36,682 bases of DNA from Candidatus Babeliales bacterium (GCA_031292305.1 JARLHJ010000022.1:1-36682); one strand, 5' to 3'. Shown: positions 4,772 through 25,570, numbered from the stretch's first letter. Made by a program: numbers and translations. Notes: generated from the sequence alone by a model not told the origin.

Positions 4772-5476
4772 TTAATTGATTAACTTGTTAACATATACGT
4801 CATCTACACCGAGCCTACATTTATATATAAAGTTTTTGCTTTCTAAATACTTTCTTATAGTCTGATTATTATAGTTATTTTCTACCGCAATTGTGTTGAT
4901 TTTTACCTTATCAAAATCAATTGTTCTTATAATGTCTTCTTCGCTACCTTCTGTATCAATACTCAAGAAGTCAATGTGTGATATATTATACTTTTTGCAA
5001 ATAAAGTTAAAATTATAAGTTTTAACTTTAATGACTTCTTTAGTTCCGCCGTGAATTTGCATTAAACCAGCCACAGCACCACCATGAATTGATTCATATG
5101 TTTCAACTAATCCACTACATAAATTTACTGGTCCTGATATTTTTAGGAAGTCTTGTTCTCCATTTTCTTTGTAGATACATCCTTCTATACAAATACATTT
5201 TCTACTATTTTTTAATAGTTTAAATTGTTCCGGTTGGGGCTCAACACAAATACCTGTCCAATTCAAATTTTTTTCTAAGAAATATGTATTGCTAGTATGA
5301 ACTCCATCAAAAGCACCTATGTCAAAAAAGACACCTTTCTTTTTTGATTTAAAGATATTTTCGGATATGTATTTATCTTGACCAAACTGACTATAATATT
5401 GACCCATTAAACCTTCAAATTTAACGATTACACAAATGATTATACTAATACTTAAAAAATATTTATTTTTGAACAT
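4772..5476 (-). CDS. FkbM-family methyltransferase, exported type
   Basis: A 234-residue methyltransferase, last gene of the long minus-strand glycan cluster. After a hydrophobic N-terminus (about 1-24, FLSISIIICVIV core) comes QYYSQFGQDKYI, the start typical of FkbM proteins, then motif I VFFDIGAFDGVHTSNTYFLE, the acidic loop GICVEPQPEQF and motif DFLSIDTEGSEEDII. These are the SAM-binding and family-defining segments. The gene overlaps the end of the upstream glycosyltransferase by 14 bases and its AAGGAG ribosome-binding site lies inside that gene, so the two are probably translated together. It ends eight bases from the bidirectional terminator. It most likely O-methylates a sugar built by the neighbouring enzymes; the exact target is not visible. 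Confidence 0.85.
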   Translation of the reverse strand: MFKNKYFLSISIIICVIVKFEGLMGQYYSQFGQDKYISENIFKSKKKGVFFDIGAFDGVHTSNTYFLEKNLNWTGICVEPQPEQFKLLKNSRKCICIEGCIYKENGEQDFLKISGPVNLCSGLVETYESIHGGAVAGLMQIHGGTKEVIKVKTYNFNFICKKYNISHIDFLSIDTEGSEEDIIRTIDFDKVKINTIAVENNYNNQTIRKYLESKNFIYKCRLGVDDVYVNKLIN

Positions 5477-6716
5477 AACTCTCCTTAAGTTCCATATATT
5501 TGTAATACAACACTTTTGAACTTGTCATTAAATAATCTGTAGTTACGAGATTCTTGTCTCCCAATATAATTTCCTTTGGTTTAAATAAATTTATAAAGAA
5601 TAAACTTAATTTATTCCAATCATATTTCTGGGCCCAAGCAATTCTTTTTTTGCATAGCAATAAATGTTTATCATAATTATTGTAAGCATTTAATAAAGCT
5701 TCTTTTACATCTTTAACATCACAATTAAAATTATTTCCAATATTTTCATTAAAAATAATATTATGTGCAGGTTTTTTAATTTCTGATTTAACAGGAATTA
5801 CCAAACCAGAACTACAAATAGTTTGATGTGCAGTATTATTTGATAAAATACATGGCAATCCAATTAACATAGCCTCGCGAGGTGTCAATGAAAAACCTTC
5901 AGCTTTAGATAATAAAGCATAGCAATTTAAAGATTCAAGAAATTTTATATAATCATTTCTGGTAAATAACTCAGTGCTTAATTCAACATTATTAATTTTA
6001 GAATTTACAATTTTATTTTTAATTTTTTGATATGAATCTGCACCAAATTTCCCATGTAGCTTTAATTTAAACTTAGGATTATTTCCAAACTGCTGGATGA
6101 AAGCATCCAACAATAATTCATGGTTTTTATGATTCCAAAAAGATGCTGATGAGCCAAAAACAAATGGTTTAACATTGCGTTTAAATTTTCTATTATTTTT
6201 AAATAATTCAATATTTCCAAGACCTAGTGGAATTGTAAATATTGGAATATTAACTCCTGCATTTTTGTATACACCTATGTAGTATTTATCTGGAACAACT
6301 ACCATATCAAAATGATTATTTAAAATTTCTACCCAGTTTTTGTGAATGGCATCTGATTCAAACATAGAATAAGCAATTTTTAATTTTGCTTGAAGTTTTG
6401 AAGTATCAAAATGATTTCCACCTGGGTACCACAACGCTTCAGAAAATAATAGAATGTTTTCATTTTCCAGAGTGCCATAATTTTCTGAAAAACTTTTTAC
6501 CACTTCGCTTTCATTTTCGAGCATGGACGGTCTTGTAGGTACAAATTTTATAGATAATTTATCATTTAAAACATTTATTAAATTTGGTATAATTTGACCT
6601 AAGCCATCATTGCTCATCATGTACCCAATAAAAGTTGCGTCTACTTTGTCATTAACAGATAATAAATACGAGCTATTAAATAAAAAAGCGAATACAATAA
6701 AATTAATTATTTTCAT
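5463..6716 (-). CDS. exported-type GT4 glycosyltransferase, paralog 1
   Basis: A 417-residue member of the six-copy GT4 set in this cluster. An N-terminal signal-peptide-like segment (about 1-21) leads straight into the first strand ATFIGYMMSNDGLGQ. The GT-B donor half shows FVFGSSASFWNHKNHELLLDAF split across 185-206, a K-L-H-G strand, and E273-x7-E281 in KAEGFSLTPRE, the standard donor-ribose and phosphate site. It is followed by LSNNTAHQTICSSG, shared by all six paralogs. The C-terminus carries the group's own tail, KPKEIILGDKNLV then LMTSSKVLYYKYM. Start ATG and the upstream gene's stop overlap as TAATG, indicating coupled translation. Compared with its siblings, the acceptor-side half is the most divergent, which may mean a different acceptor. 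Confidence 0.85.
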   Translation of the reverse strand: MKIINFIVFAFLFNSSYLLSVNDKVDATFIGYMMSNDGLGQIIPNLINVLNDKLSIKFVPTRPSMLENESEVVKSFSENYGTLENENILLFSEALWYPGGNHFDTSKLQAKLKIAYSMFESDAIHKNWVEILNNHFDMVVVPDKYYIGVYKNAGVNIPIFTIPLGLGNIELFKNNRKFKRNVKPFVFGSSASFWNHKNHELLLDAFIQQFGNNPKFKLKLHGKFGADSYQKIKNKIVNSKINNVELSTELFTRNDYIKFLESLNCYALLSKAEGFSLTPREAMLIGLPCILSNNTAHQTICSSGLVIPVKSEIKKPAHNIIFNENIGNNFNCDVKDVKEALLNAYNNYDKHLLLCKKRIAWAQKYDWNKLSLFFINLFKPKEIILGDKNLVTTDYLMTSSKVLYYKYMELKESYVQK

Positions 6717-7963
6717 TATTTTTTACCTATATTTTTTAAATACTTATTATAAAGACTTTGTGAATTTGTAATGACATAATCATTGGTTATATCATTAATA
6801 TCTCCAAGGACTACTTTTTTAGGGCTTATTAAAGTGAAGTAATCTTTTTTGATATTCTGAATATCATATTTTTTAACCCAAACAGAACCTTTAGCAGCCA
6901 ATTTATGAAATTTAGGATAATTTCTATATACACTAACTAAGGCTTTACAAACATCTGACAAAGAACAATTAAAGTTTTTTCCAACAAAACCTAGCGCTTC
7001 TGAATAAGCTTCTTTTGCGATATCTGATTTTACAGGATAAACAAAACCAGAATTACACAAAGTTACATGTGCTGTGTTATTGCTCACAATAACTGGAATG
7101 TTGGCCGCTAAAGCCTCACGTGGAGATATGGAATAACCTTCACCTGAAGAAACAGTAACGTAGCAATCTAGAGAATAAATAAAATCCATATATTCTTTTT
7201 TTGTGAAGGGCTGCTTAATTAAAATGATATTTGTGGATTTTAAATCACTAATTTTTTTTCTTATGTTTTCATACTGCCCACCACCTTTTCCATGAAGCTT
7301 TAAAATTACATTTTTGTTATTTCCAAAAACTTTATGAAATGCATCAATTAGTAAAATGTGGTTTTTGCGTGCTTCAAATCCTGCAGTGTTACCAAATACG
7401 AATGTTTTTTTATTTTTTTCTAAAGCCTTGGGTTTAAATTTGTTTAAATCTAAAGACATTGGCAAAACAAAAACGGGTATTTTTACACCAGAATCTTGAT
7501 AAACTTTTACCAAACTTATATCTGGCACCACTAAGGCATCAAAACTTGAATTAAGCTTATCAACCCAATCTTGCAGAACATGGGTACTTTCAACCATTGA
7601 ATAAGCTAATGAAATTCCATTTTTTTTAAAATTCAGAAAATTATCCCATTTATTAGTGGAAAGTATATGCGTGTAAAGACATACGTCATTACTTTCATTT
7701 TTCAGAACAGTTTCATCGTTTACAGCTATGCTATTTTCTACTATTTTTTGAGTGTCTTTTGATAAATCTTGTAATCTAGTTTCTTCAGGATAAATATTAT
7801 ATAACTTTATTTTTAAACCAGTTTTTAGACATTCTATAAAACTTAGAGCTACCTGACCTATACCACCATAGGGATCAACAAAACCTACAATATCCAAGTC
7901 AACATTTGCATTAATTACAGAGATATTAAAAAGTAAAAAAAGTATCTTTATATTCAATTTCAT
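6716..7963 (-). CDS. exported-type GT4 glycosyltransferase, paralog 2
   Basis: A 415-residue GT4 enzyme. The signal peptide is well formed: MKLNIK, a hydrophobic core, and INA before NVDLD, a plausible signal peptidase I site near residue 19. The donor site motif is E275-x7-E283 in SGEGYSISPRE, and the K-N-H-x-L-L-I-D-A-F helix lies near 200-209. A glycine-rich KLHGKGGGQY replaces the longer loop found in its siblings. The conserved tail is SPKKVVLGDINDI then VITNSQSLYNKYL. The family transfers sugars from nucleotide donors with retention of configuration; the donor here cannot be told. A clear AAAGGTG ribosome-binding site precedes the ATG. It follows paralog 3 after a 26-base gap, consistent with one transcript. 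Confidence 0.85.
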   Translation of the reverse strand: MKLNIKILFLLFNISVINANVDLDIVGFVDPYGGIGQVALSFIECLKTGLKIKLYNIYPEETRLQDLSKDTQKIVENSIAVNDETVLKNESNDVCLYTHILSTNKWDNFLNFKKNGISLAYSMVESTHVLQDWVDKLNSSFDALVVPDISLVKVYQDSGVKIPVFVLPMSLDLNKFKPKALEKNKKTFVFGNTAGFEARKNHILLIDAFHKVFGNNKNVILKLHGKGGGQYENIRKKISDLKSTNIILIKQPFTKKEYMDFIYSLDCYVTVSSGEGYSISPREALAANIPVIVSNNTAHVTLCNSGFVYPVKSDIAKEAYSEALGFVGKNFNCSLSDVCKALVSVYRNYPKFHKLAAKGSVWVKKYDIQNIKKDYFTLISPKKVVLGDINDITNDYVITNSQSLYNKYLKNIGKK

Positions 7964-7989
7964 TGTTACACCTTTTATATTTAATTATA

Positions 7990-9234
7990 TTACTTATAAA
8001 GTTCCATATATTTTTTATATAATTCTTTGGATGAGGTCATGAAGAAATTTTTAGAAATAATATTGTGTTTTCCAAAAACTATTTTTTTTGGCTTTACTAA
8101 ATTTAAATATTTATTTCTCATAGATTCAATTGAATATTGATTAGCCCAGTGACGTCCTTTTTGAGCAAGCTCAGAATAGTATTCATAATTATTATAAACT
8201 TCTCTAAGTGCCCTTCTTGCGTCTTTTATTTCACAATTAAAATCAAATCCAAAAGTAGTTTGATCAACTGTAATATGTGGTTCTTTAATATCAGATTTAA
8301 CTGAATAAACAAACCCAGAATTACAAATTGTTTTTTGGCACGTATTATTAGAAACGATTGTTGGAAGACCCAATGCTAATGATTCGCGAGGAGTTATAGA
8401 AAAGCCTTCGCCTTTTGATAATATTACATATGAATCTAAGCTTAATAGAAATTCAATATATTCCTGTCTAGAAAAAGTTTGATATAAAAGTTCAATATTA
8501 AAATTTGGGTAACTTTCGACACACTTTTTCACTTCTTCATAATAATGGCCCTGCCTGCCATGCAATTTTAATTTTACTACATTTTTCTCATATGCAAATT
8601 CTTCACAAAAAGCCTGCACTAGCAATTTGTGATTTTTACTTTCTCCAAACCCTGCAGAAAATCCAAAAGTAAATATAGGGTTTGTTGATTTTCTTTTTTC
8701 TTGTTTTAAAAAAACATCCAAATTTAAGGCAATTGGCAAAACAAAGATTGGTATTTTTACACCAGAAGATTTATAGACATCGACTAGATATTCATCACCA
8801 ACAAGCACACCATCAAAATGCTTATTTAATCTTTCTACCCACGCGACAGGCACTCTGGTACCTTCAACCAACGAATAAGAAAATTTTATCTGATTTTGTT
8901 TTTGTAAATATTCTTCTGAATATACATCTAAAGTATCTGTGTAAATAGAAATACTTTTTGGTTTTATTTCATTAATTTTTTTTGTTTTACTTATTATATC
9001 AGTTATATATACAGGCAAATCAGCTGGCCAAAGCCAAAATTCTCTGCTATTAACAAAATTTATATGTATATCTTTATGCAATGTGGAAATGAAGCTTATC
9101 GGAATTTGACCCAACCCATCTGAAAATTTTATGAAACTGATTAAATTTAAATCAACGTTTATATCTTTGCTTTCAGAATAGTTTTTAAAAGCAATAACTA
9201 TAAGAAATAAAAACAGTTTTTTTTGTAATTTCAT
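7990..9234 (-). CDS. exported-type GT4 glycosyltransferase, paralog 3
   Basis: A 414-residue GT4 enzyme. I place the start at the ATG at 9234 and not at an in-frame TTG at 9249, because TTGGAG overlapping that TTG is the ribosome-binding site (nine bases before the ATG) and because the protein then begins MKLQKKLFLFLIVIAF, a normal signal peptide. Donor-site residues are E276 and E284 in KGEGFSITPRE. Other group motifs present are FGFSAGFGESKNHKLLVQAF, KLHGRQGHYYEEV, and SNNTCQKTICNSGFVYSVKS. The tail reads KPKKIVFGKHNII then FMTSSKELYKKYM. An unusual tryptophan-rich stretch, FWLWPADLP (about 66-74), occurs in the acceptor half. A 135-base gap to the next gene upstream could hold a promoter, but none is convincing. 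Confidence 0.85.
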   Translation of the reverse strand: MKLQKKLFLFLIVIAFKNYSESKDINVDLNLISFIKFSDGLGQIPISFISTLHKDIHINFVNSREFWLWPADLPVYITDIISKTKKINEIKPKSISIYTDTLDVYSEEYLQKQNQIKFSYSLVEGTRVPVAWVERLNKHFDGVLVGDEYLVDVYKSSGVKIPIFVLPIALNLDVFLKQEKRKSTNPIFTFGFSAGFGESKNHKLLVQAFCEEFAYEKNVVKLKLHGRQGHYYEEVKKCVESYPNFNIELLYQTFSRQEYIEFLLSLDSYVILSKGEGFSITPRESLALGLPTIVSNNTCQKTICNSGFVYSVKSDIKEPHITVDQTTFGFDFNCEIKDARRALREVYNNYEYYSELAQKGRHWANQYSIESMRNKYLNLVKPKKIVFGKHNIISKNFFMTSSKELYKKYMELYK

Positions 9235-9369
9235 TTGAATTTGCTCCAATTATAAAACAATAATTAAAATAGGATTTTCAGAATCTATTATAATTTTTTA
9301 TTGTTAAAAATAACTAGTTTTAATGAAATTATTTAATAATAGCCTTTCAGAAACCAAATTATTCTCAAG

Positions 9370-10572
9370 CTACTTTATGTTCTTATATTTTCTGTATAGC
9401 ATTAAAGAATTTGTCATTAAATAACTATCGGCAATAATATTCTCAGGTCCGAACCTTAATTTTTTGGGTTTAATTAAGTTTAAATATTTATTCTTCAATC
9501 TTTCTGGTAGATATTTCTTAACCCAGTTTCTACCTTTAATGCCATTTTTTAAATTTTCGTTGTAATTGTCATATAATTCCCTTAAAGCTTTTCTGGCATC
9601 ATTTAAACTGCAATTAAAATCAAACCCACAGTAATCTTTTCCATTTGATGTATGCGGCTCTACAATATCTGATTTTACTGAGTATACAAAGCCTGAATTG
9701 CATATGGTTATGTGTGATGTATTATTAGATACGATACACGGAACCCCTAACGCCATAGCTTCACGTGGAGTAATAGAAAAACCTTCACCTTTTGAAAATG
9801 TTACATAACAGTCCAACTTTTTAAGAAAGTTTATATATTCATCCGTAGATAAAACTGCATTATCTAAATATATGTTTGAAGATGTTTTAATTTTATTTTT
9901 TATTTCATCAAAATAATACCCTCCTAATCCATGTAGTTTTAAGATTACATTTGGATTTTCACTAAATTCCGCTTTAAAAGCCTCAATTAACAAATCATAA
10001 TTTTTGCTAATACCAAAACCAGCTGAATACCCAAACACAAATTTTTCATTTTTAAATGATTTAATGGGTTGAGTTAATATCGGATTTAAGTCTAAACTCA
10101 TGGGCAATTCAAAAATTGGTATTGTTACGCCTGAATTTTTATAAACTTCTATATAATATCTATCGGGAACCATTACTGCATCAAAGTATTTATTCAACCT
10201 CTTTACCCAACTTGAATCTAATTGCGTGCACTCAGTCATTGAATATGCTAATTTAATGTATGCAGGAATAGCTAAATCTTGTTCTGTATAAGTTGTGATA
10301 ACATTTGTATAAATAATTATGTCTTTGCTAAAATCTTGATTAATAATAACAGAAGCATTCTTGATAATTTTTTTTATTTTAGGTTCATAAGTCTGCTCTG
10401 GACTGGGAACTTGTTTAATCATTTGTAGTCCAGGAAAATCAAGTAAGCATTGTAAAAAACTATAGCTAACTTTGCCTATTCCGCTTTTAACATTCACAAA
10501 TCCAAAAATGTAAACATTTTGTCCATTAATATTTAATATAAGTATTGCTATTATAAAAAGTAATTTATTCAT
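9370..10572 (-). CDS. exported-type GT4 glycosyltransferase, paralog 4
   Basis: A 400-residue GT4 enzyme, the shortest of the six. The signal-peptide-like start (about 1-17, LLFIIAILILNING) is followed at once by NVYIFGFVNVKSGIGKV, the first strand and glycine loop of the catalytic fold, so there is no linker between export signal and enzyme. The donor motif is E263-x7-E271 in KGEGFSITPRE; FGYSAGFGISKNYDLLIEAF replaces the usual KNH with KNY. The group tail is KPKKLRFGPENII then LMTNSLMLYRKYK. The ribosome-binding site is poor (AAGGGC thirteen bases upstream), so expression may be weaker or rely on coupling. It sits downstream of the divergent GDP-mannose dehydratase, 83 bases away. Sugar specificity unknown. 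Confidence 0.85.
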   Translation of the reverse strand: MNKLLFIIAILILNINGQNVYIFGFVNVKSGIGKVSYSFLQCLLDFPGLQMIKQVPSPEQTYEPKIKKIIKNASVIINQDFSKDIIIYTNVITTYTEQDLAIPAYIKLAYSMTECTQLDSSWVKRLNKYFDAVMVPDRYYIEVYKNSGVTIPIFELPMSLDLNPILTQPIKSFKNEKFVFGYSAGFGISKNYDLLIEAFKAEFSENPNVILKLHGLGGYYFDEIKNKIKTSSNIYLDNAVLSTDEYINFLKKLDCYVTFSKGEGFSITPREAMALGVPCIVSNNTSHITICNSGFVYSVKSDIVEPHTSNGKDYCGFDFNCSLNDARKALRELYDNYNENLKNGIKGRNWVKKYLPERLKNKYLNLIKPKKLRFGPENIIADSYLMTNSLMLYRKYKNIK

Positions 10573-10655: not shown

Positions 10656-11816
10656 TTATTTTAACAAATTAATATCGTTTTTTATCATCATTTTCACTAA
10701 TTCTTTAAAAGATACTCTCGGCTTCCATTTCAATTGATTTTTTGCTTTAGAAGGGTCACCTATTAAAAAGTCTACCTCAGTGGGTCTGAAGTATTTAGGA
10801 TCTACGTAGATCAATTTCTGACCTGTTTTCTTATCAATACCTACTTCATTTACGCCATGTCCGCGCCAAATAATATCTATTCCTATTTCATTAAAAGCTA
10901 ATTCTACAAACTCTCTTACTGAATGCACTTCCCCTGTAGCAATTACATAATCTTCAGGCTTATCTTGTTGCAACATCAACCACATCGCTTCAACGTAATC
11001 ACCTGCAAATCCCCAATCTCTTTTAGCATTAAGATTACCTAAGGATAAATACTTGGCTTCTCCTTTTTTAATTTTAGAAACACTTTTTGTAATTATACGC
11101 GTTACAAATTCTTCTCCACGAAAAGGTGATTCATGGTTAAATAAAATCCCATTGCATGCATACATATTATAAGCTTCTCTGTAATTAATAGTTGACCAAT
11201 ATGCACACGCTTTGGCAACACCATAAGGAGAACGTGGATAAAAAGGAGTTAATTCGTCTTGTGGAAATTTCTTAGTTTTACCAAAAACTTCACAAGTAGA
11301 AGCTTGATAAAACCTTATCTTTTTTTCTTGATCAACGCTATGCATAGAAACTAAAATATTTAAAGTTCCTACTGCATCTACCATTAAAGTGTGTAATGGT
11401 TCTTCAAATGAGGTCTTAACTGAACTTTGCGCGGCTAAATTATATATTTCATCCGGCATATACTTACGTATAGTTTCTGAAACGAATGAATGATCTGTAA
11501 TATCACCATTTAATAAAATTAAATTTTCTTTTAATTCTATATCTACGTCTTTTATAAATTCAAATAATTTTTGCGTGTTAGAAGCTGTAGCTTTACGAGT
11601 AATCCCGTATATTTTATAACCTTTATTTAAAAGCAATTTTGTTAAATAACACCCATCTTGGCCTGTAATTCCAAATACTACGGCTATTTTTGAATCGCAA
11701 ATCTCGTTTTGATCAATATCTTTATCAACTTTAATTAAATCATTGCAATAAATTTTATTTACAAATAACGACATTAAAATTATTAACCATATGCAATCTC
11801 TATAAAAACTCTTCAT
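10656..11816 (-). CDS. GDP-mannose 4,6-dehydratase-like SDR with signal peptide, divergent copy
   Basis: A 386-residue extended short-chain dehydrogenase resembling Gmd, which turns GDP-mannose into GDP-4-keto-6-deoxymannose using bound NADP. Seen: nucleotide-binding GITGQDG (49-55), catalytic Thr174 and Glu176 in QASTCEVFG, and Tyr198-x3-Lys202 in SPYGVAK. Also typical are NHESPFRGEEFVTRII and [13 protein letters not shown]. Different from canonical Gmd, the RRSSSFNT segment that helps bind cofactor between subunits is replaced by TRKATASNTQKL, so substrate or assembly may differ. About 40 residues precede the fold, including a hydrophobic signal-like segment (9-24). A strong GGGGGAG ribosome-binding site supports this start. 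The cysteine at 24 lacks a proper lipobox. It may be a related GDP-sugar enzyme and not a true dehydratase. Confidence 0.8.
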   Translation of the reverse strand: MKSFYRDCIWLIILMSLFVNKIYCNDLIKVDKDIDQNEICDSKIAVVFGITGQDGCYLTKLLLNKGYKIYGITRKATASNTQKLFEFIKDVDIELKENLILLNGDITDHSFVSETIRKYMPDEIYNLAAQSSVKTSFEEPLHTLMVDAVGTLNILVSMHSVDQEKKIRFYQASTCEVFGKTKKFPQDELTPFYPRSPYGVAKACAYWSTINYREAYNMYACNGILFNHESPFRGEEFVTRIITKSVSKIKKGEAKYLSLGNLNAKRDWGFAGDYVEAMWLMLQQDKPEDYVIATGEVHSVREFVELAFNEIGIDIIWRGHGVNEVGIDKKTGQKLIYVDPKYFRPTEVDFLIGDPSKAKNQLKWKPRVSFKELVKMMIKNDINLLK

Positions 11817-11941: not shown

Positions 11942-13180
11942 TTAATTTTTTATAGTTAAATATTTTTCATATAATTTTTTTGAGCTTGTCATTAGATATT
12001 CTTCAGTTACTAAATTCTTATCGCCTAGTATTATTTTTTTGGGTTTTATTAGATTTAAATATAATGGTTTTAATGAATACCATGTGTATTGTTGAACCCA
12101 TGATTTTCCTAGATCAGCCAAAGCTAGATATTTATTATAATTTAAATAAACCCCTCTCATTGCTTTTCTGATATCCAGTATTGTAGAATTAAAAAAATAT
12201 CCTATTTGATCCGAACCATATTGCTTATAAAATGCCGGCTCTAATATCTTACTATCAACTTCTCTTATATAACCAGTATTACAAATAGATTTTTGCGCAG
12301 TATTGTTAGATAAAATACAAGGAATACCTAACGCTAAGGATTCTCTAGGAGGCACAGAATAACCCTCGCCTTTGGAAATATTAATAAAGCAATCCAAGCT
12401 AGACATAAATTCTATGTATTCTTCTTGTGTAAGAATATTTGAAGTCAGAATTATATTGTTATAATTTTTGCATAATTTTTGAAGCTTAGTAAGCAAATTA
12501 TTATTATCAAAGGAACGTCCATTTATTTTCAAAATAAAGTCTTTAGAATTCCCAAATTCCTCAATAAAACTTTTAATTAACAATTCATGATTCTTTCTTT
12601 CGTGATAAGCTACAGTTGTTCCAAATGTAAAAGATTTATTCATCTTGTTTTTTTGTGGACGCGATAAAAATTTATGTAGATTTAAACCTAACGGCAACAT
12701 AAAAATTGGAATATTAACTCCAGCATTATTATAAACAGTGATCAAATAACTATCTGGGACAACTACCGCATCAAATTCTTTGTTTAAAACTTTTACCCAT
12801 TCTTCTGGTATGGCAGTAGTTTCAAACATGGAATAAGCTATCTTGATTTTACTATTAGAAGGAATAACATGATAAGTAGGTATTTTATTATAAAAAACGA
12901 CATCCGTAAGGATAGAAACATTGGTTTTATTATTTATATTATTCACACTAACCGATTTTGGTATATATTTACCCTGGTCCTTATAATTTCTAGTGGGGAT
13001 AACATTAATTTTTAAATCTCTTTCAAAAGAATTAATTAAACCAATAGGTATTCTTCCTAATCCATCTTCATATTTTATATATCCAACTATCGTTAAGTCA
13101 GAAACTGTATCTAAAGCCATTTGAGGAGTTATGTTCAAGATTAAAAATAGAGTGAACTTATATTTGTAAATTATTTTCAT
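11942..13180 (-). CDS. exported-type GT4 glycosyltransferase, paralog 5
   Basis: A 412-residue GT4 enzyme. The N-terminus is basic then hydrophobic (MKIIYKYKFTLFLILNI) with likely cleavage near QMA at 20-22; the fold starts at LTIVGYIKYEDGLGRIP. Donor-site glutamates are E272 and E280 in KGEGYSVPPRE, where proline replaces the usual threonine of the other copies. The KINGRSF strand replaces KLHG, so the histidine of that strand is lost in this copy. SNNTAQKSICNTGYI and the tail KPKKIILGDKNLV, LMTSSKKLYEKYL are retained; the tail is almost the same as in paralog 1, which suggests these two are closest relatives or exchanged their 3' ends. Only eight bases separate it from the gene before it, so both are on one transcript. 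Confidence 0.85.
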   Translation of the reverse strand: MKIIYKYKFTLFLILNITPQMALDTVSDLTIVGYIKYEDGLGRIPIGLINSFERDLKINVIPTRNYKDQGKYIPKSVSVNNINNKTNVSILTDVVFYNKIPTYHVIPSNSKIKIAYSMFETTAIPEEWVKVLNKEFDAVVVPDSYLITVYNNAGVNIPIFMLPLGLNLHKFLSRPQKNKMNKSFTFGTTVAYHERKNHELLIKSFIEEFGNSKDFILKINGRSFDNNNLLTKLQKLCKNYNNIILTSNILTQEEYIEFMSSLDCFINISKGEGYSVPPRESLALGIPCILSNNTAQKSICNTGYIREVDSKILEPAFYKQYGSDQIGYFFNSTILDIRKAMRGVYLNYNKYLALADLGKSWVQQYTWYSLKPLYLNLIKPKKIILGDKNLVTEEYLMTSSKKLYEKYLTIKN

Positions 13181-17407: not shown

Positions 17408-18202
17408 TTAATAAAAAAAGTCTTTATGCATTGTCCTTACAAGTAATTTCTCCTTTGCGAGCAAGTCCATAGTTTGCCCATTGGTAGAAAGGCCCATAGG
17501 GTTGTGGTAAGCCAAACCATAAAAACCTGGAACTTTTTTGAATTTTACATCATTTCTAGCTATGCGAATCCAAAATTCCCAATCACCTACTATTGTAAAA
17601 TTTTCATTAAATAGTCCAAATTTATTGTGCAGTTTTTTTCTCCACATTGGGTTAAACGAAGGCAAGCAATTATATCTTAGATACATTTTAGAAAATTCAG
17701 GCTTGGATATAGTTCCAATTCTCGGATTAGGTGCAAATGCTGTATTGATGATATTTGTTTGATATCCATCTGAATAGACTAAATCTACACTTTTGTATTT
17801 GTCTAAGGTTTTTACATATGTTTCATAGCATGTGTACTCAAGCCTGTCGTCTACATTTGCATTAGTTAAATATCTACCACTTGCCAACCTAATTGCTTCA
17901 TTCCATGCGCTATAAATTGTCACTCTTTTTTTTAGTTTCTTATAAATTATATTTTTATATTTTTTTAAATAAGGTTTTATTATTTTTTCTTCATTTTCTG
18001 GTGAATTTGCATTAATCAAAATCAACTCACATTGATTAAATATGGTTTGCTTGGTTATCTCTTGCAAAAAATGTTCTATAAATATTTCACCCTTATAGAT
18101 TGAAGTAATAATAGAAACCTTAGGGGTGAAGCTTAAATTTTTTTCACTTTTTATATCCAAAAAGATTATAAAAAATAAAAAAATAAAAAACCGGTTTATC
18201 AC
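17408..18202 (-). CDS. GT2-family glycosyltransferase with N-terminal signal/anchor
   Basis: A GT-A fold glycosyltransferase of family 2. I choose the GTG at 18202 (264 residues) over an ATG at 18229: the GTG overlaps the upstream TGA as GTGA, GGAG lies ten bases upstream, and the protein then begins MINRFFIFLFFIIFLDI, a typical signal or anchor. Seen motifs: PKVSIITSIYKGEIFIEHFL at the fold start, the first Asp-like position in LILINANSPE, AWNEAIRLASGRYLTNANVDDR where the catalytic-metal DxD appears as NVDDR, and GDWEFWIRIARN, typical of the GT2 acceptor helix. PNPRIGT and SFNPMWRKKL lie between. Donor sugar unknown. It is translationally coupled to the bi-domain oxidoreductase, suggesting that this enzyme uses or follows that product. 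Confidence 0.85.
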   Translation of the reverse strand: MINRFFIFLFFIIFLDIKSEKNLSFTPKVSIITSIYKGEIFIEHFLQEITKQTIFNQCELILINANSPENEEKIIKPYLKKYKNIIYKKLKKRVTIYSAWNEAIRLASGRYLTNANVDDRLEYTCYETYVKTLDKYKSVDLVYSDGYQTNIINTAFAPNPRIGTISKPEFSKMYLRYNCLPSFNPMWRKKLHNKFGLFNENFTIVGDWEFWIRIARNDVKFKKVPGFYGLAYHNPMGLSTNGQTMDLLAKEKLLVRTMHKDFFY

Positions 18203-20352
18203 AATTCCAATTCTCCGCCACCTTGGCAAACTAATTGATCAACTGTCAAAGCTAAATCTGTAACAGTCGCTAGTCTTTCTAAATTAAATGGCATTTCAGA
18301 TTTTTCATTTTTGATGCTTTCAAAAAAAGATGTAATAAGTTTTTCATATCCTTGATCTGGAACTTTAACGCGCTCATCAAAAGTTGGAGAAACTCCATAC
18401 CCTACCAGACTTACATAATCTTCCATTATTATAGATTTAGAATCAAAAAATAGTTCCATACGTTCTTTACCTAGATCCATATGCCCCAGCGATGTAAACA
18501 ACAGTGAACAAACAGAGCCATCTTCAAAACTGACAGTGGCACAAAAATTATCAGTAGGAAATGCAACGTTGCTTTGATGTTTGAGTGATTCAACCGATAC
18601 TGATATTGGCTTAGTGCCTGTCAGGTAACAAAATAGATCAAAAATATGAGGCGCTTGAATCATTATTCTTCCTGATTTCCACTCTGATTGCATTCTTTGT
18701 TCTTTTGGTATAAATCCAGCATTGAATCTGTATTGTATCATTAATGGAGAGTTACGATTTGCAATAGCTTTTTTTATTTTTTGTATGAACGGAGAATAAG
18801 TTCTATGGTATCCCACGCATAAATATGAGTTTTTGTTTTTCAAAAAAAACTGTTTTAATTGCTTAAAATCAATCAAGTTTGTCTCTAAGGATTTAGCCAT
18901 AAAAATAGCTTTTCCGCGTTCTAAAATAGAAATTACTTCTTCAGTGGTGATATCTGCAGATGGACTTACAACGACCACATTACAATTGTTTTCAGAAAAT
19001 AATCCTGCATTACCTGCATACGCCAATGATCCTGGATAGAACTTTGCTGCATTTAAAGAATTAGCCATATCTCTGTCTACTATAGTATCAATAATTACGT
19101 TGTTTAATTTGGAGATAATAGGCATTAAATTTAATTGCATAAATTTTGATGCACCAATTATCCCAACTCTCATAGAATCTTTAAATGCGGGAATAAACGT
19201 AATTTTTTCTTCGCCATTGTATGGCATGCAGCCTAGTTTTTTATCATCCATATAATTTAAAACTACACCTAAGCTATTATTTTGATTTATATTTTCTATA
19301 GCTTTAGAAATGTCATTTAACCCAAACTCATTTTTTATAAACCCTGAAAGATCTATTTGATTTGTTTCAATTAAATTTGCAAAAACTTCCATGTTTCTAT
19401 TTTCTGTCCAACGAACATATGAATATGGGTAGTCTTGACCTTTGTATTCATATAAAGGATCATATCTTCCAGGGCCATAAGACAAAGAAAATAATACATC
19501 TATCTCTTTTTGACCAATTAAATTCTTTTTAAGTTGAATATCTCTATTTTCTACAATTACTATGCGGCCTTTTTTTCTAACTATTTTTAAAGCATCGTTA
19601 ATAATATTGTCTTGTGCACAATCTGGTGTGATAATTACACAATCCACGCCTACTGAATTTGTAAGTAACTCTATTGATTGCATCAAATTATCTTGAGAAA
19701 AATTATATGTATATGGAATTCCAGATTGTTGTGCATTTAGCACAAGCTCTGGATTGTGGTCAACGCCCACAACTTTACATCCGGAGATTCGAGCCAGTTG
19801 TGCAATTAGATGACCTAATGTTTCAAGTCCAAAAATACAAACAGACTCCCCTAGTTGTAAATTTGCTCTACGTATACTTTGTAGAGCCATTGCACCAACA
19901 GCCGTTAAACTGCTTGTTTTTAAAAGAGATTCATCTTTAATTGGTGTGATTAAATTTTGAGGCACACATACCACATCTGCATGATTAGCAAGCCCAGGAC
20001 CTGCGCAGGCCACAAAATCACCTACTCTAAATTTTTTTACTTCTTTGCCTACTGCAATTACTTGCCCTGAACAAGATTGCCCAAGGGGAATGATTTTACC
20101 AGCAAGTTTATCTTTAATTATTTTTGCTGTATAATCCACGCCATGCTGAGTTACTATTTCTAGAATTTTTTTTACCTTCGTGGGAACATTTTCGTAAAAG
20201 AGTTCTTGGTTTGCTGCCACAATATTTGCAAGCCCTTTGCCTGAACTTATAAAGGAATAATGTACTGACACTATTACAGAATAGTCGTCTAATTTTGGCT
20301 CGCAAACTTCTTTTATTGATAATATTCCACGTTCTAGAAATAACTGTCGCAT
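18199..20352 (-). CDS. bi-domain oxidoreductase (MDR plus Gfo/Idh/MocA)
   Basis: A 717-residue fusion. Residues 1-365 are a medium-chain dehydrogenase: GQSCSGQVIAVGKEVKKFRV, GDFVACAG, and a Rossmann strand VCIFGLETLGHLIAQLA in which the second glycine of G-x-G-x-x-G is Glu. It has ISSGKG in the place of a zinc-binding Cys, so no catalytic zinc is expected. Residues about 390-717 are a Gfo/Idh/MocA domain: MRVGIIGASKFMQ, the dinucleotide motif also imperfect, and MAKSLETN at the family's EKP position, keeping only the Lys; GYHRTYSPF and APHIFDLFCYLTG follow. Such fusions occur in surface polysaccharide clusters, probably oxidising or epimerising nucleotide sugars. It has no signal peptide, unlike most neighbours. 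AAGGAG lies before the ATG. Confidence 0.85.
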   Translation of the reverse strand: MRQLFLERGILSIKEVCEPKLDDYSVIVSVHYSFISSGKGLANIVAANQELFYENVPTKVKKILEIVTQHGVDYTAKIIKDKLAGKIIPLGQSCSGQVIAVGKEVKKFRVGDFVACAGPGLANHADVVCVPQNLITPIKDESLLKTSSLTAVGAMALQSIRRANLQLGESVCIFGLETLGHLIAQLARISGCKVVGVDHNPELVLNAQQSGIPYTYNFSQDNLMQSIELLTNSVGVDCVIITPDCAQDNIINDALKIVRKKGRIVIVENRDIQLKKNLIGQKEIDVLFSLSYGPGRYDPLYEYKGQDYPYSYVRWTENRNMEVFANLIETNQIDLSGFIKNEFGLNDISKAIENINQNNSLGVVLNYMDDKKLGCMPYNGEEKITFIPAFKDSMRVGIIGASKFMQLNLMPIISKLNNVIIDTIVDRDMANSLNAAKFYPGSLAYAGNAGLFSENNCNVVVVSPSADITTEEVISILERGKAIFMAKSLETNLIDFKQLKQFFLKNKNSYLCVGYHRTYSPFIQKIKKAIANRNSPLMIQYRFNAGFIPKEQRMQSEWKSGRIMIQAPHIFDLFCYLTGTKPISVSVESLKHQSNVAFPTDNFCATVSFEDGSVCSLLFTSLGHMDLGKERMELFFDSKSIIMEDYVSLVGYGVSPTFDERVKVPDQGYEKLITSFFESIKNEKSEMPFNLERLATVTDLALTVDQLVCQGGGELEL

Positions 20353-20449: not shown

Positions 20450-21853
20450 ATGAAAACAAATTTATTAATATTTATATTTTTTAGCATTATGAATTTACAA
20501 ACTATGAGCAACACACCAAAACCATTTCCCAATGTAACTATTATCGGCTCGGGATATGTTGGATTAGTGGCCGCTTGTTGTCTTGCTAAATTAAAAAAAC
20601 AAGTCTGCTGCGCAGATATTGATAAAGACAAAATCGATAAATTAAAAAATAAAATATGCCCATTTTATGAACCGGGATTAGAAGAACTTCTTGGCAATGC
20701 AATAGATGAAAAATCAATTGAATTTACAAGTAACATAGAAATAGCGATTGAAGAAGCTAGCATAATTTTTATTGCTGTAAACACACCCACATTAGAAAAC
20801 GGTGATGCAGATATAACTGCAGTAAAAGCAGTAGCAAAAACAATTGCTAAACATTTAAATACTTATAAAATAATTTGCCTTAAGAGTACTGTACCTATTG
20901 GTACACACAAAATAGTTGAAGAAATTATTAATAAAGAAAAAATTAGCGATGTAACATTTGATATAGTTTCAATTCCTGAATTCTTGCGAGAAGGTTCTGC
21001 TATATACGATTTTATAAACCCGAACAGAATAGTAATTGGCGCAAAATCCAAAGAAGTATTTGATACAGTTAAATCTTTGTTTGATAATGTGAATGTAAAA
21101 TCAGAAAACATCATTTTTACTAATAATTTAGTTGCAGAAACAATTAAATATGTAGCTAACTCTTTTTTAGCTTTAAAAGTTTCTTTTGCTAATGAAATTT
21201 CAAATTTTTGCGATGAATTAGGAATTGATACAATTGCAGTTATGTATGCAGTTGGTAAAGACGAAAGAATTGGATCGCAATTTCTTAACCCTGGACCTGG
21301 GTTTGGCGGATCATGTTTTCCTAAAGATGTTAAAGCTCTAAAAAAAATGATGGAAGATGCTGGAGTTGACCCTAAATTGATCTCCAATATTCTATCTGTT
21401 AATGAAGCTCAAAAGCATATTGTTGTAAAACGTCTATGCACTTTGATAGGAAATGATATTAAAAATAAAAATATTGCTGTGTTGGGACTAGCATTTAAAG
21501 CAAATACAGATGATATACGTGAAGCACCTGCATTAACAATTATTAAGGAACTTAAGAGCTTAGGCGCAAATATTAGAGCTTATGATCCTAAAGCAAATAG
21601 CAATATGAAACGGGAAATACCAGATATAACTTATTGCGATAGCCTAAACACAGCTATAGAAAAAGCTGATGCAATTTTAGTTTTAACAGAATGGCAAGAA
21701 TTTAAGAACTTAGACTTGAGCGCAATAAAAAACTCAGTAAATCAAAAAATTATTTTAGACACACGCAATATTATAAATTCTGTACGCGCCATAGAACATG
21801 GTTTTATATATGATGCCATTGGAAAAAACTTTTTATTACGTAATTCAAAATAA
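20450..21853 (+). CDS. ugd: UDP-glucose 6-dehydrogenase with N-terminal signal-like extension
   Basis: A 467-residue NAD-dependent enzyme that oxidises UDP-glucose twice to UDP-glucuronate. Seen: VTIIGSGYVGLVAACCLA (29-46), NTPTLENGDAD, KSTVPIGT, PEFLREGSA, catalytic Lys243 in LALKVSFANE, and catalytic Cys289 in GFGGSCFPKD, followed by the UDP-binding C-terminal domain GLAFKANTDDIREAPA. All key residues are present. The oddity is the first 20 residues: a hydrophobic run (NLLIFIFFSIMNL) before the fold. An ATG at codon 14 or 19 would give an ordinary cytosolic protein, but neither has a ribosome-binding site, whereas AAAGGAAG precedes the first ATG. The exostosin-like transferase follows after 19 bases. 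Product UDP-glucuronate points to an acidic glycan. Confidence 0.9.
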   Translation: MKTNLLIFIFFSIMNLQTMSNTPKPFPNVTIIGSGYVGLVAACCLAKLKKQVCCADIDKDKIDKLKNKICPFYEPGLEELLGNAIDEKSIEFTSNIEIAIEEASIIFIAVNTPTLENGDADITAVKAVAKTIAKHLNTYKIICLKSTVPIGTHKIVEEIINKEKISDVTFDIVSIPEFLREGSAIYDFINPNRIVIGAKSKEVFDTVKSLFDNVNVKSENIIFTNNLVAETIKYVANSFLALKVSFANEISNFCDELGIDTIAVMYAVGKDERIGSQFLNPGPGFGGSCFPKDVKALKKMMEDAGVDPKLISNILSVNEAQKHIVVKRLCTLIGNDIKNKNIAVLGLAFKANTDDIREAPALTIIKELKSLGANIRAYDPKANSNMKREIPDITYCDSLNTAIEKADAILVLTEWQEFKNLDLSAIKNSVNQKIILDTRNIINSVRAIEHGFIYDAIGKNFLLRNSK

Positions 21854-21872
21854 TTAATTAAACAGGAACAAT

Positions 21873-22880
21873 ATGATTAATAAATATATTTTCACAACTT
21901 TGATATTATTTTTTTTAACTAACCAAAATTTATTAGGTGAATTTAGTACTAAAAATTTAGTTATAAATAATGAATTAAAAAATGAATTAAAAAATTCTTA
22001 TATTATGGGAAGTGGATTCAAAGTGATCTGCAGACATATATTTGACGCAAGCGAGAAAATTGAATTTGACCATCCTGCTGATCCAAAAAATGTCTTATCT
22101 GGTGATTTAGTTTATACTAGCAGTGGCAATATTGTGAATTTTTTTAACAATATACATCCCCAAATTAAAAATCCTTACATTCTTATTACAAGTCAAACTG
22201 ATGCATCATCGCCCGGCATGGTTGGAGGATTTGGATACGGCATCTATGCAAATAAAGAAATAATTGATCGTTCATTGAATTATCTAAATGATGAAAAATT
22301 AATTGCATGGTTTGGAATTCATCCTGATATTATTCATCCTAAATTTGTCCCTATTCCCTGTGGGATTAGGTATTTCTATAGTCAAAAATTTATTGAAGTT
22401 TTTGATAAAGTTATTAATAAAAATAAAAATAACCCGCCTGTTAAAAATAAATTACTTTATATGAATTTTACCATTGCTAATGCACCTGTATATCGTCAAT
22501 TAGTTTATGATTATTTTTCAAAACAATCTTTTTGCACAAACTTAATTTTTAATAGAATGCCGTATATAGATGAGATTTTTCTAGATCAATTATCTGAATC
22601 AAAGTTTGTTTTAAGTCCTCATGGGCATGGAATAGATTGTTATAGAACATGGGAAATTTTATTAATGGGCAGCATTCCAGTAGTTAAAACATCAATTCTT
22701 GACGAACTTTATGAAGATTTACCGGTATTAATTGTTAAAGAATGGTCAGAAGTTACTGAAAAGTTTCTTGAAGAAAAATATATAGAGATTTGTTCTAAAA
22801 AATATAATTATGAAAAACTCTATATGCCTTATTGGATTAACAAAATTAATACGTTTATTGCAGAAAACCAAGCAAGATAA
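21873..22880 (+). CDS. exostosin-like (GT47-like) glycosyltransferase, exported type
   Basis: A 335-residue protein whose C-terminal half has the exostosin-family donor segment: SKFVLSPHGHGIDCYRTWE and then LLMGSIPVVKTSILDELYEDLPV (about 236-285). In eukaryotes and bacteria this family transfers sugars such as glucuronate, N-acetylglucosamine or xylose; the bacterial relatives are usually capsule or surface glycan enzymes. The N-terminus is a signal-like segment (MINKYIFTTLILFFL), probable cleavage near LLG at 20-22. An aromatic-rich central part (LLYMNFTIANAPVYRQLV) is also typical. AGGAA precedes the ATG and the gap to ugd is only 19 bases, so a glucuronosyltransferase role using the Ugd product is attractive but inferred. 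The final codons form part of the terminator stem. Confidence 0.65.
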   Translation: MINKYIFTTLILFFLTNQNLLGEFSTKNLVINNELKNELKNSYIMGSGFKVICRHIFDASEKIEFDHPADPKNVLSGDLVYTSSGNIVNFFNNIHPQIKNPYILITSQTDASSPGMVGGFGYGIYANKEIIDRSLNYLNDEKLIAWFGIHPDIIHPKFVPIPCGIRYFYSQKFIEVFDKVINKNKNNPPVKNKLLYMNFTIANAPVYRQLVYDYFSKQSFCTNLIFNRMPYIDEIFLDQLSESKFVLSPHGHGIDCYRTWEILLMGSIPVVKTSILDELYEDLPVLIVKEWSEVTEKFLEEKYIEICSKKYNYEKLYMPYWINKINTFIAENQAR

Positions 22881-22893
22881 CTTGCTTGGTTTT
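22864..22893 (+). terminator. intrinsic terminator overlapping the gene end
   Basis: A perfect 13-bp stem, AAAACCAAGCAAG with CTTGCTTGGTTTT, and the 4-base loop ATAA, whose TAA is the stop codon of the exostosin-like gene. The right arm ends in TTTT and continues into GTTTATA, so it is a compact intrinsic terminator. The gap to 22988 has no further clear hairpin. Confidence 0.75.
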
Positions 22894-22988
22894 GTTTATA
22901 TAGTAAAAAAGATTTCAAAAACTTCTTATTAAGACTCTGCAACCTAAGTCTTTAAATACTTTTGTGTCCCACTTGCAAATATTTCCAA

Positions 22989-23621
22989 TTATTTTTTAGG
23001 TTCAAAATACCAAAAATTATCCTCAGAATAAACTTCAAGTTTTAACTCTGCTATTGCGCGCGCCACACCCTTTTTAACAGATGGCCACCACCAATCGTCC
23101 CCGCAACAAATTCCACCTTTTTTTACTTTTGGGTACCAAGCCATAATATCTTGATATACATCTTCTTCTGTATGGCAAGCATCGATAAAGATTAAATCTG
23201 CGTTTATATTTAACGCTTTAGAAGCTTGAATCGATTTCATTTTAATAGGAATTATTTTATGAGTAAGTTTCATATGTATGCAATTAGACAAAAACTGCCA
23301 ATACGACGTTGGCATTCTCTTTTGATATTCTGGAAAAGCATGCATCTCTTCGTAATCTTCCCATGGATCAACAACATACAGTTTAGATTGCTTTCCTAAT
23401 TGTTTGGCAATCAGAAAAGCTGTAACACCTAGCCATGTTCCCACTTCTATAACTGTTGTCGGATTAAGCTTTTTTATAAAGTTTGACAAATACGCTTGAT
23501 TTGTAGGATGAACTCCACCGTGATAATCTGCAGCTAGCGGAACTATAGACGCATAAGGCTCTGGCAAAGCGAAAACTTTCAACATCACAATTAAACAAAT
23601 AAAAATTAATTTAAAATTCAT
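22989..23621 (-). CDS. exported-type class I SAM methyltransferase (Methyltransf_24-like)
   Basis: A 210-residue protein with a clean signal peptide (1-18, MNFKLIFICLIVMLKVFA, cleavage before LPEP). The rest is a class I methyltransferase: TVIEVGTWLGVTAFLIAKQL (motif I), YVVDPWEDYEE (acidic residue binding SAM ribose), then LIFIDACHTEEDVYQDIMAW and KGGICCGDDWWWP, the D-H-x-Y/E-x-V-x-x-D and G-G-x-x-x-x-D pattern of Methyltransf_24-type enzymes. Relatives methylate sugars or small natural products, often in polysaccharide clusters. The AAGGAA ribosome-binding site fits. It lies downstream of the next methyltransferase gene, 37 bases apart, in a small minus-strand operon. The triple tryptophan at the D-D-W-W-W-P site is notable, but its role is unknown. 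Confidence 0.8.
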   Translation of the reverse strand: MNFKLIFICLIVMLKVFALPEPYASIVPLAADYHGGVHPTNQAYLSNFIKKLNPTTVIEVGTWLGVTAFLIAKQLGKQSKLYVVDPWEDYEEMHAFPEYQKRMPTSYWQFLSNCIHMKLTHKIIPIKMKSIQASKALNINADLIFIDACHTEEDVYQDIMAWYPKVKKGGICCGDDWWWPSVKKGVARAIAELKLEVYSEDNFWYFEPKK

Positions 23622-23658
23622 GATTCTTTCCTTAATCGAAAATTATACAATTTTCTCA

Positions 23659-24378
23659 TTATTTTTTTGATATAACTGCAACATAAATCCCATTCCACCA
23701 AGTACTAGTATCCATATTTTGAGACGATGGTAAGAACTTCTCGTATAAGACTTTATAGCCTAAATCTTTAAAAGCTGCTTGAGTACCATCTTGAACTTCT
23801 TTCCAATTATAATCATCTACTATTGCAATAAATTGATCCTCTAATATTTCATTATAATATGCAAACGCTAGTCTTTGTTCTTCGAATGTATGGCCGCCAT
23901 CATAAAAATAAATATTTATTTTATTTTTTATATTTTTAATATCAAACTTAAAGCAATCGCTTTCATAAAATTTATATGCGCTTGGTAAAATAAATTTATT
24001 AAGATTGTTTTGAAATTCTTGCTTTGGTCCAGTAAATTGGGCCCAATTATCAATAGCTGTTGCCTCTAACAATTTTGTGTTATTATATAAGGCTGAAACA
24101 AATGTCGAACCTTTCCATACACCAATTTCTAAATATCTCCCATTTTTCAAAGAACATATATTATTTAAAAGATGTCTAACTTTATCGCTAGACATGCCTT
24201 CCAGTTTTAATATATCTGAATTTAATTGAGATGTTTTATTATCAGCATTCTTAATACTTTTAACAACATGATTAACCAAATATTGGGTTTGATTAATTGC
24301 TGATGAAACTATTATAGAATTTGAAATCGAGAAAACAAAAATCAATAACTTATAAGTCTTAAAATAATTTTTATACAT
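23659..24378 (-). CDS. exported-type class I methyltransferase-like protein
   Basis: A 239-residue protein. A hydrophobic start (about 1-27, LLIFVFSISNSIIVSSA) is followed by a helical linker of some 50 residues and then a Rossmann-like methyltransferase core: GRYLEIGVWKGSTFVSALYN (motif I), TAIDNWAQF (acidic loop), IYFYDGGHTFEEQRLAF and IAIVDDYNWKEV. These match the D-G-x-H and D-D-x-x-W of Methyltransf_24-like enzymes, as in the gene downstream, though the two are not close copies. The ribosome-binding site AAGGGA lies six bases before the ATG. It is first in a two-gene operon of methyltransferases and starts in the divergent 190-base gap 24379-24568. Substrate is unknown; sugar methylation is inferred from neighbours. 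Confidence 0.7.
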   Translation of the reverse strand: MYKNYFKTYKLLIFVFSISNSIIVSSAINQTQYLVNHVVKSIKNADNKTSQLNSDILKLEGMSSDKVRHLLNNICSLKNGRYLEIGVWKGSTFVSALYNNTKLLEATAIDNWAQFTGPKQEFQNNLNKFILPSAYKFYESDCFKFDIKNIKNKINIYFYDGGHTFEEQRLAFAYYNEILEDQFIAIVDDYNWKEVQDGTQAAFKDLGYKVLYEKFLPSSQNMDTSTWWNGIYVAVISKK

Positions 24379-24530
24379 CTTAGTCCCTTATTTTTTACAA
24401 ACATTTATTTTAATTTTATTATAAAAGCTCATGCCCTCCCTAAAAAATTGTTATTAATAATGTTTATAATATTTTTTTTATGTTTTTTTTGTCAATAGAT
24501 TGGTAATTATATTATACAAAAAAATATAGT

Positions 24531-24539
24531 TGATATAAT
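24531..24539 (+). promoter_or_regulatory. extended -10 promoter element
   Basis: TGATATAAT: a perfect TATAAT at 24534-24539 preceded by TGA, making an extended -10, 29 bases before the ATG at 24569. No good -35 is present, as is usual for extended -10 promoters. An 8-bp AT-rich inverted repeat (24537-24544 and 24549-24556) overlaps its end. Confidence 0.45.
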
Positions 24540-24568
24540 AAGAAAAACTTCTTATTTAAAGTAAAAAT

Positions 24569-25570
24569 ATGTTAAAACTTATTACAGCTTTTATTTTTTT
24601 TATATTGCCATTAAATTTTTCATACTTAGATTATGCCTATCCAATTAGAGCCTTTAAAGCTCAAACTGGCCGTTCTAGATTTGGAGACTGTTTGTCTATT
24701 ATCTACACAACTAAATATCTTTCTTGCAAATACAACTTGCCTGTTTTATTTACAAAATTTAATAATTATGATGAGTTAGAAATTCAAAAGTCTATAGATT
24801 CACAAGAGAATAATTTTATTTATTTTAATAATATTATTAAAATAAATAATGAAACCGAAATTAGGCACTATAATGAAGACACGTTGTTTATTGTAGATGT
24901 TAATTTTTCTTTAAATAAAGAAGAAATGAGCCCGCAAGCAGTCCACGATGCCGATAATGATTTTAAGAAACTAATAAAGTTGACGCGCCCAATCCAACCT
25001 GCATGCCCTAAATTAGACAAGAACATAATTAAAGTTGCCTTACATGTAAGAAAGGGTGGTGGTTATGATTTGCCATTGCTCTCAAAAGATGCACTAGATT
25101 TAGAAAATTATAATCCTGAAAATGTTATAGATGCAGATGAATTGGCAATAGAGCATCAGAAAAAACGCTTTTATTTTTCGGATGTTAGATGGCCATTTAA
25201 ATTTCCACCAGATTCATTTTATTTAAAACAAATACTATATATTTATAAGCTTTTAAATAACAAGCCTCTTCATGTACATATTTTTACCGATGATCCTAAT
25301 CCTAAGTGTATAATGGAAAAATATAAAAAATTTATTAATAATCCCAACATTACCTTTTCTTGCAGACAACAAGACAATGCGCATGACAAGAACGTTGTTG
25401 ATGATTTTTTTGCAATGTCAACATTTGATTGTCTAATTAGGCCCGTGTCATTTTATTCAGAAAATATACAACGAATTGGGAATTTCAAAATAGTAATTTT
25501 TCCTGCGCATGGCATTTGGGTAAAAAATGATATATTAATAATTGATGAGGTTAAAACAATAACAAAGTAG
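24569..25570 (+). CDS. fucosyltransferase-like (GT11-like) protein, exported type
   Basis: A 333-residue protein. After a signal-like segment (about 1-20, LITAFIFFILPLNFSY) comes TGRSRFGDCLSIIYTTKYLS (33-52), in the position of the glycine-rich first motif of alpha-1,2-fucosyltransferases, then VALHVRKGGGYD (156-167), the H-x-R-R/K-G donor-binding motif of the GT11/GT23/GT65 superfamily, HVHIFTDDPNP, and DDFFAMSTFDCLIRPVSFYS, the late motif where GT11 has D-F-x-L-M-S-x-C-x-x-x-I-x-x-x-S. Thus it would use GDP-fucose or a related GDP-6-deoxyhexose, which agrees with the Gmd genes in the window. The upstream ribosome-binding site is weak. The HIT gene follows six bases later, on the same transcript. 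The assignment rests on motifs and is moderate. Confidence 0.6.
   Translation: MLKLITAFIFFILPLNFSYLDYAYPIRAFKAQTGRSRFGDCLSIIYTTKYLSCKYNLPVLFTKFNNYDELEIQKSIDSQENNFIYFNNIIKINNETEIRHYNEDTLFIVDVNFSLNKEEMSPQAVHDADNDFKKLIKLTRPIQPACPKLDKNIIKVALHVRKGGGYDLPLLSKDALDLENYNPENVIDADELAIEHQKKRFYFSDVRWPFKFPPDSFYLKQILYIYKLLNNKPLHVHIFTDDPNPKCIMEKYKKFINNPNITFSCRQQDNAHDKNVVDDFFAMSTFDCLIRPVSFYSENIQRIGNFKIVIFPAHGIWVKNDILIIDEVKTITK

Follow-up and report, generated by a model that had tools for sequence, protein, structure and literature searches.

Do the enzymes of a bacterial glycan pathway act outside the cell that encodes them? The question is raised by the 36,682-nucleotide stretch of DNA analysed here (the window), in which an earlier note, made from the sequence alone, had described a near-complete glycan pathway whose enzymes carry export signals. 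Within an assembly of 1.53 Mb, the window makes up contig C8; its GC content is 29%, and its genome belongs in Candidatus Babelota (= Dependentiae, TM6), a phylum of very small bacteria found inside protists. Two ATP/ADP translocase genes in this genome fit an intracellular energy parasite. The assembly is 92% complete and was surveyed by sampled stretches. A chimeric contig was rejected, since relatives also have HIT and AlaS genes near equivalent clusters. The genes under study are listed with coordinates, strand and the basis of each assignment.

3925..4713 (+): FkbM-type methyltransferase, probable signal peptide, long n-region (borderline); PF05050 at residues 69-238, no call by the first signal rule
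4772..5476 (-): FkbM-type methyltransferase, signal peptide; PF05050 from residue 52, signal score 3.2, AAGGAG upstream of the ATG
5463..6716 (-): GT4 glycosyltransferase a, signal peptide; PF00534, start codons absent between signal and domain
6716..7963 (-): GT4 glycosyltransferase b, signal peptide, junction INA/NVD; Pfam, signal rule, start-codon scan
7990..9234 (-): GT4 glycosyltransferase c, signal peptide; ATG start (longest ORF from a TTG at 9249), Pfam, signal rule, start-codon scan
9370..10572 (-): GT4 glycosyltransferase d, signal peptide; Pfam, signal rule, start-codon scan
10656..11816 (-): Gmd1, GDP-mannose 4,6-dehydratase, signal peptide; TIGR01472, strong ribosome-binding site AAGGGGGAG upstream, no internal start
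11942..13180 (-): GT4 glycosyltransferase e, signal peptide; Pfam, signal rule, start-codon scan, 48% identity to a signal-bearing Babela massiliensis GT4
13189..14403 (-): GT4 glycosyltransferase f, signal peptide; Pfam, signal rule, start-codon scan, comparison with Babela massiliensis GT4
14422..15201 (-): sulfotransferase ST1, signal peptide of lower hydrophobicity; PF00685 from residue 23
15240..16373 (-): Gmd2, GDP-mannose 4,6-dehydratase, signal peptide, junction SYA/QGD; TIGR01472, GGAG upstream, no internal start
16627..17403 (+): sulfotransferase ST2, signal peptide; PF00685, signal rule, start-codon scan
17408..18229 (-): GT2 glycosyltransferase, signal-like N-terminus, TTG start; PF00535 from residue 39, signal score 3.45
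18199..20352 (-): bi-domain oxidoreductase, signal-free internal control; Pfam, signal rule, extension in 0/9 phylum-locus copies
20450..21853 (+): Ugd, UDP-glucose 6-dehydrogenase family enzyme, signal peptide; TIGR03026, catalytic-Cys motif GFGGSCFPKD present
21873..22880 (+): exostosin/RXYLT1-like glycosyltransferase, signal peptide; PF24785, signal rule
22989..23621 (-): class I methyltransferase, signal peptide, junction VFA/LPE; PF13578, signal rule
23659..24378 (-): class I methyltransferase, signal peptide; PF13578, signal rule
24569..25570 (+): fucosyltransferase-fold protein, signal peptide; Foldseek, no Pfam match
25577..26101 (+): HIT protein, signal-free internal control; Pfam, signal rule

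Predicted Sec signals on the window enzymes

Signals were initially called by a hydropathy rule applied to the N-terminus (positive n-region followed by a hydrophobic h-region). On its own, this rule misfires on Rossmann-type starts, with false positives in 5/27 cytosolic E. coli proteins, and the phylum census therefore counted a copy only if a distinct N-terminal extension, 17 residues or longer, also preceded the domain. A positive n-region and a hydrophobic core precede a complete catalytic domain in all named window enzymes, the FkbM protein at 3925..4713 being borderline; in the window Ugd, the Pfam N-domain begins at residue 28, after the hydrophobic segment. The window enzymes are thus predicted, by the n/h-region rule, to carry Sec-type signals before the mature domain. 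Pfam/NCBIfam matches and hydropathy bear out the earlier reading of signal-like N-termini on the six related GT4s, the GT2, the exostosin-like protein, the Gmds, Ugd, the sulfotransferases and the methyltransferases. The weakest signals are those of ST1 (h-region mean hydropathy 1.95), Gmd2 (1.99) and the FkbM protein at 3925..4713 (long n-region). For the latter, which had been counted as signal-bearing, PF05050 and a hydrophobic N-terminus were found, and the first signal rule made no call.

At internal Met residues, the null rate of signals was 2.9%, and residue shuffling gave 11%. Chance hydrophobicity in an AT-rich genome was rejected on the basis of the internal-Met null and of signal-free paralogues. 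Signal-like N-termini occur on ~59% of the sampled genes in the window genome, and a value of 44% has been published for such N-termini in Chromulinavorax (PMC6561590). A signal alone is ordinary in this genome; the surprise is which enzyme families bear one.

A Shine-Dalgarno match of at least 4 nt was found at 44/65 signal starts, 7/32 internal in-frame ATGs, 47/65 starts of signal-free copies and 16% of random sequence (p ~2e-6). Since ribosome-binding sites lie at the start codon of the signal, and not at internal ATGs, the signal is translated. No ATG, GTG or TTG occurs from residue 17 to the domain in 9 of the 15 tested window genes, among them those of Gmd1, Gmd2, ST1, ST2 and 5/6 GT4s, and Gmd1 and Gmd2 combine a clear ribosome-binding site with zero alternative starts before the domain. 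An artefact of start-choice annotation was rejected on the placement of ribosome-binding sites and the missing internal starts, in line with the earlier note, which had pointed to signal-free neighbours: the HIT protein and the bi-domain oxidoreductase are signal-free, whereas AspS, which the note took as a further control, has its N-terminus outside the window and does not count here.

Among 79 signal-bearing N-termini, the n-region was net positive in all 79; in 63 it carried more positive charge than the flank that follows the h-region, and in 15 the two were equal; this charge excess predicts an N-in orientation, with the enzyme outside. Cleavage sites are weak evidence for the predicted signals: a -3/-1 compatible site is present in 77/79 but also in 64% of random windows, and few N-termini (21/79) have a strong [AVS]xA site. 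The three junctions singled out earlier, SYA/QGD (Gmd2, 15240), INA/NVD (6716) and VFA/LPE (22989), were found in the translations.

Enzyme identities and the rest of the pathway

Gmd1 and Gmd2 score 504 and 569 bits against TIGR01472, the NCBIfam gmd equivalog (cut-off 415), with the model beginning at residues 43 and 33, respectively; with this score and the catalytic motif, both are predicted to be GDP-mannose 4,6-dehydratases. The S/T..E and SPYxxxK catalytic motifs are kept in 58/58 Gmd copies of the phylum, and degraded or decoy enzymes were rejected on this intactness. The window Ugd matches the subfamily model TIGR03026 from residue 28 (457 bits, cut-off 190) and falls below the cut-off of the TuaD equivalog (483 vs 700 bits). 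For the 24569..25570 protein, described earlier as fucosyltransferase-like, Pfam gave no match and no sequence match was found; the fold supplied the support. The best 16 Foldseek matches of its AlphaFold2 model, which is of moderate confidence (pLDDT 72), are all GDP-fucose transferases (FUT8, AtFUT1, POFUT2; E 1e-4, TM ~0.45), indicating a predicted GDP-fucose-transferase fold. The nearest solved structures to ST1 are SULT-type enzymes (animal SULT), and ST1 is possibly a gene transferred from a eukaryote. By fold, the window GT4 comes closest to B736L of chlorovirus PBCV NY-2A (PDB 3oy2), like it a parasite-encoded glycosyltransferase, but viral and compared by sequence profile and fold only.

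The description of the pathway as near-complete held in part: Gmd, Ugd and transferases lie in the window, whereas the PAPS synthase and an Fcl-like protein are encoded on other contigs (C31 and C18), and ManC was not found in the 92%-complete assembly, where only two NTP_transferase genes turned up, one GalU-like (signal-free) and one GlmU-sized. The PAPS synthase is signal-bearing, scores 869 bits against NF004040 (cut-off 669) and contains both PF01747 and PF01583, as predicted for a bifunctional sulfate adenylyltransferase/APS kinase. The divergent C18 protein, signal-bearing and with a TTG start, is under the cut-off for GDP-L-fucose synthase (NF047922, 240 vs 500 bits), and is hence named Fcl-like only. 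A second Ugd-like enzyme and further transferases (C37, C6) also bear signals, and the window genome yielded neither a Gmd nor a Ugd without one. Contig C37 (G000:C37; L084, L121) holds a second signal-rich glycan cluster, with Ugd-like, FkbM and other methyltransferase, GT2, Gly_transf_sug-like and fucosyltransferase-like genes, and G000:C6 encodes a signal-bearing fusion of an N-terminal part of no assigned type with an NDP-sugar epimerase (L087:3806-5596).

A similar arrangement occurs in Babela massiliensis, whose 'ATP sulfurylase', of a function called unclear by the genome authors (PMC4378268), is by its sequence a PAPS synthase with a signal, encoded next to four GT4s that carry signals too. 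The PAPS synthase is 66% identical to that of the window genome, and the adjoining GT4s (L271:2171-9154) reach 48% identity to window GT4s. About 11 kb from this cluster is the gene of a Gmd that bears a signal and shares 62% identity with Gmd2. In an exported pathway, seemingly orphan enzymes, the Babela ATP sulfurylase among them, would gain a purpose.

Recurrence of the signals across the phylum

Signal-bearing extensions were counted in 101 genomes of the phylum, all from a single order. They were present on 27/58 scored copies of Gmd, 14/31 of Ugd, 13/24 of Fcl, 5/12 of ManC and 6/6 of PAPS synthase, and on 10/10 scorable sulfotransferases, many loci being without the motif needed for scoring. 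The count of signal-bearing versions in relatives, put forward as a check by the earlier note, thus shows them to be recurrent. PAPS synthase and sulfotransferases occur together in 5/6 genomes, and 8 genomes contain both a signal-bearing and a signal-free Gmd. The extension is absent from neighbours in the phylum loci, namely the bi-domain oxidoreductase (0/9), HIT (0/7) and the WbpA/MnaB-type dehydrogenase (0/10), and from near Gmd homologues outside the phylum (0/79, from a genome-contig scan that yielded no Babelota record).

The Gmd tree, which is weakly supported, needs 7 or more changes of signal state, and the signal-bearing copies cluster on it (mean of ~22 changes after shuffling). 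Several gains of the signal on Gmd are likely; a single origin, which this tree would also allow, is less likely. Between the closest relatives among the Gmd, Ugd, Fcl and PAPS synthase copies, identity is mostly 12-55% in the signals and 62-89% in the mature parts. Such drift of the signal beside a conserved enzyme is as expected if only its physical character is retained.

Proposed site of action and supply of donors

Our preferred reading, to which we give a probability of about 0.62, is that the glycan pathway is exported, draws on donors from the host and probably operates outside the outer membrane. The signals predict with high probability that the enzymes leave the bacterial cytosol, and the recurrence in the phylum, the placement of ribosome-binding sites, the signal-free paralogues and the signals on PAPS synthase and the Fcl-like protein support this well. 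The earlier note had placed the pathway in the periplasm or in a host cell; of these, a site beyond the outer membrane is favoured. By analogy, action beyond that membrane is somewhat probable, because RING finger, PP2C phosphatase, Fic and ADP-ribosylglycohydrolase-type proteins of the window genome have similar signals (L085:3193-4456, L120:13574-15507, L084:293-922 and L082:8709-9908), being candidate host-directed effectors, and because secretins are numerous. A shorter RING protein (L085:3193-3669) failed the signal rule, with a Pfam match below cut-off. Five secretins are encoded, four in tandem at G000:C21:17524-26800 (L314) and the fifth on C34, an unusual number for a 1.5-Mb genome; their neighbours are PilM/O/P-like (named by eye). 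For Babela, the sole secretion system reported is of type II (PMC4378268).

In the proposed mechanism, Sec signal peptides placed before ordinary cytosolic enzymes (Gmds, Ugd, sulfotransferases, glycosyltransferases, the fucosyltransferase-fold protein, methyltransferases, PAPS synthase and the Fcl-like protein) would direct them through the Sec machinery out of the cytosol, a step strongly supported by sequence. The outer membrane would then most likely be crossed, perhaps via type II secretion/type IV pilus-type secretins, and the enzymes would work either in the cytosol of the host or at the side of the bacterium exposed to it. The host would provide GDP-mannose, UDP-glucose, ATP, sulfate, NAD(P) and SAM, and the likely product would be a glycan that contains fucose and uronic acid, is sulfated and methylated, and decorates either a host target or the bacterial coat. 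The chances are about even for the fuller version, in which the whole pathway is secreted, with Sec signals grafted several times, and both donor synthesis (GDP-fucose, PAPS) and glycan assembly run in the host cytosol.

The main rival is a periplasmic pathway fed by host donors, in which the enzymes stop in the periplasm, while host nucleotide sugars, ATP, SAM and NAD enter by outer-membrane pores, as does ATP for the inner-membrane translocases. A Sec signal by itself guarantees periplasmic delivery only, the two ATP/ADP translocase genes imply that host nucleotides get into the periplasm, and a Gram-negative-like envelope is reported in Chromulinavorax (PMC6561590). However, the similar signals on RING, PP2C and Fic proteins, which are of a eukaryotic signalling type, are easier to understand if these proteins act in the host, and the numerous secretins point outward, so that we regard this rival as the less likely of the two.

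Dual or vestigial targeting, in which the signals are weak or internal starts skip them and the enzymes function chiefly in the cytosol of the bacterium, is improbable. Internal ATGs persist in 12/13 signal-bearing Fcl (near the old start) and 13/27 signal-bearing Gmd copies, a cytosolic form of Fcl from such an ATG is possible, and ST1 and Gmd2 have weak signals. Yet internal ATGs are near random in their ribosome-binding sites, which stand at the signal starts, Gmd1 and Gmd2 are without an internal start, the signals are retained despite sequence drift, and several genomes have separate signal-free copies. Uncleaved inner-membrane anchors that hold the catalytic domains in the cytosol, with which the scarcity of strong [AVS]xA sites would agree, are very improbable given the N-in, enzyme-out charge pattern of the n-regions and the near-universal -3/-1 compatible sites, common as these are in random windows.

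The nearest precedents are the secreted glycogen enzymes of Chlamydia and the hexokinases of microsporidia. Chlamydia trachomatis secretes GlgA and other glycogen enzymes by type 3 secretion, and host UDP-glucose is imported by SLC35D2 (PMC4829429); the phosphoglucomutase CT295 gained a secretion signal in only some Chlamydia species (PMC9251005). There too, an obligate intracellular bacterium exports housekeeping-type sugar enzymes and uses host UDP-glucose outside its own cytosol. By contrast, the Chlamydia enzymes leave by type 3 secretion, lack Sec signals and build glycogen in a vacuole, whereas in Babelota Sec signals are found on Gmd, Fcl, Ugd, ManC, PAPS synthase and transferases, for which the location is the one predicted above. 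Secreted hexokinases of microsporidia, proposed to act in the host cell, occur as signal-bearing and signal-free copies (PMC4654818). Like Babelota, these are intracellular parasites with a metabolic enzyme in both forms, but they are eukaryotes, and a single enzyme rather than a glycan pathway is concerned. The cytosolic GDP-fucose/colanic-acid pathway of E. coli (ManC-Gmd-Fcl-Ugd-Wca) comprises the same enzyme families; its enzymes begin at the domain, without a signal extension, whereas several Babelota counterparts bear export signals.

Our literature search, with subscription papers and preprints outside it, returned no report joining Dependentiae with secreted glycosyltransferases, nor one of such a whole exported pathway. 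To our knowledge, none of these parasites uses Sec signals to export the enzymes that make nucleotide-sugar and PAPS donors along with the transferases. Genome-based metabolic reconstruction presumes that enzymes act inside the encoding cell, a presumption that probably fails across this phylum. If the proposal is true, these parasites make glycans from host-supplied donors, a new way to exploit the host. Babela grows in amoebae, which makes the idea of an exported pathway directly testable.

Elsewhere in the window, 26138-27289 encodes a clostripain-family (C11) peptidase with a signal peptide, and 30158-34602 encodes two neighbouring, paralogous, signal-bearing beta-propeller-like proteins that have in common a C-terminal part of no assigned function.
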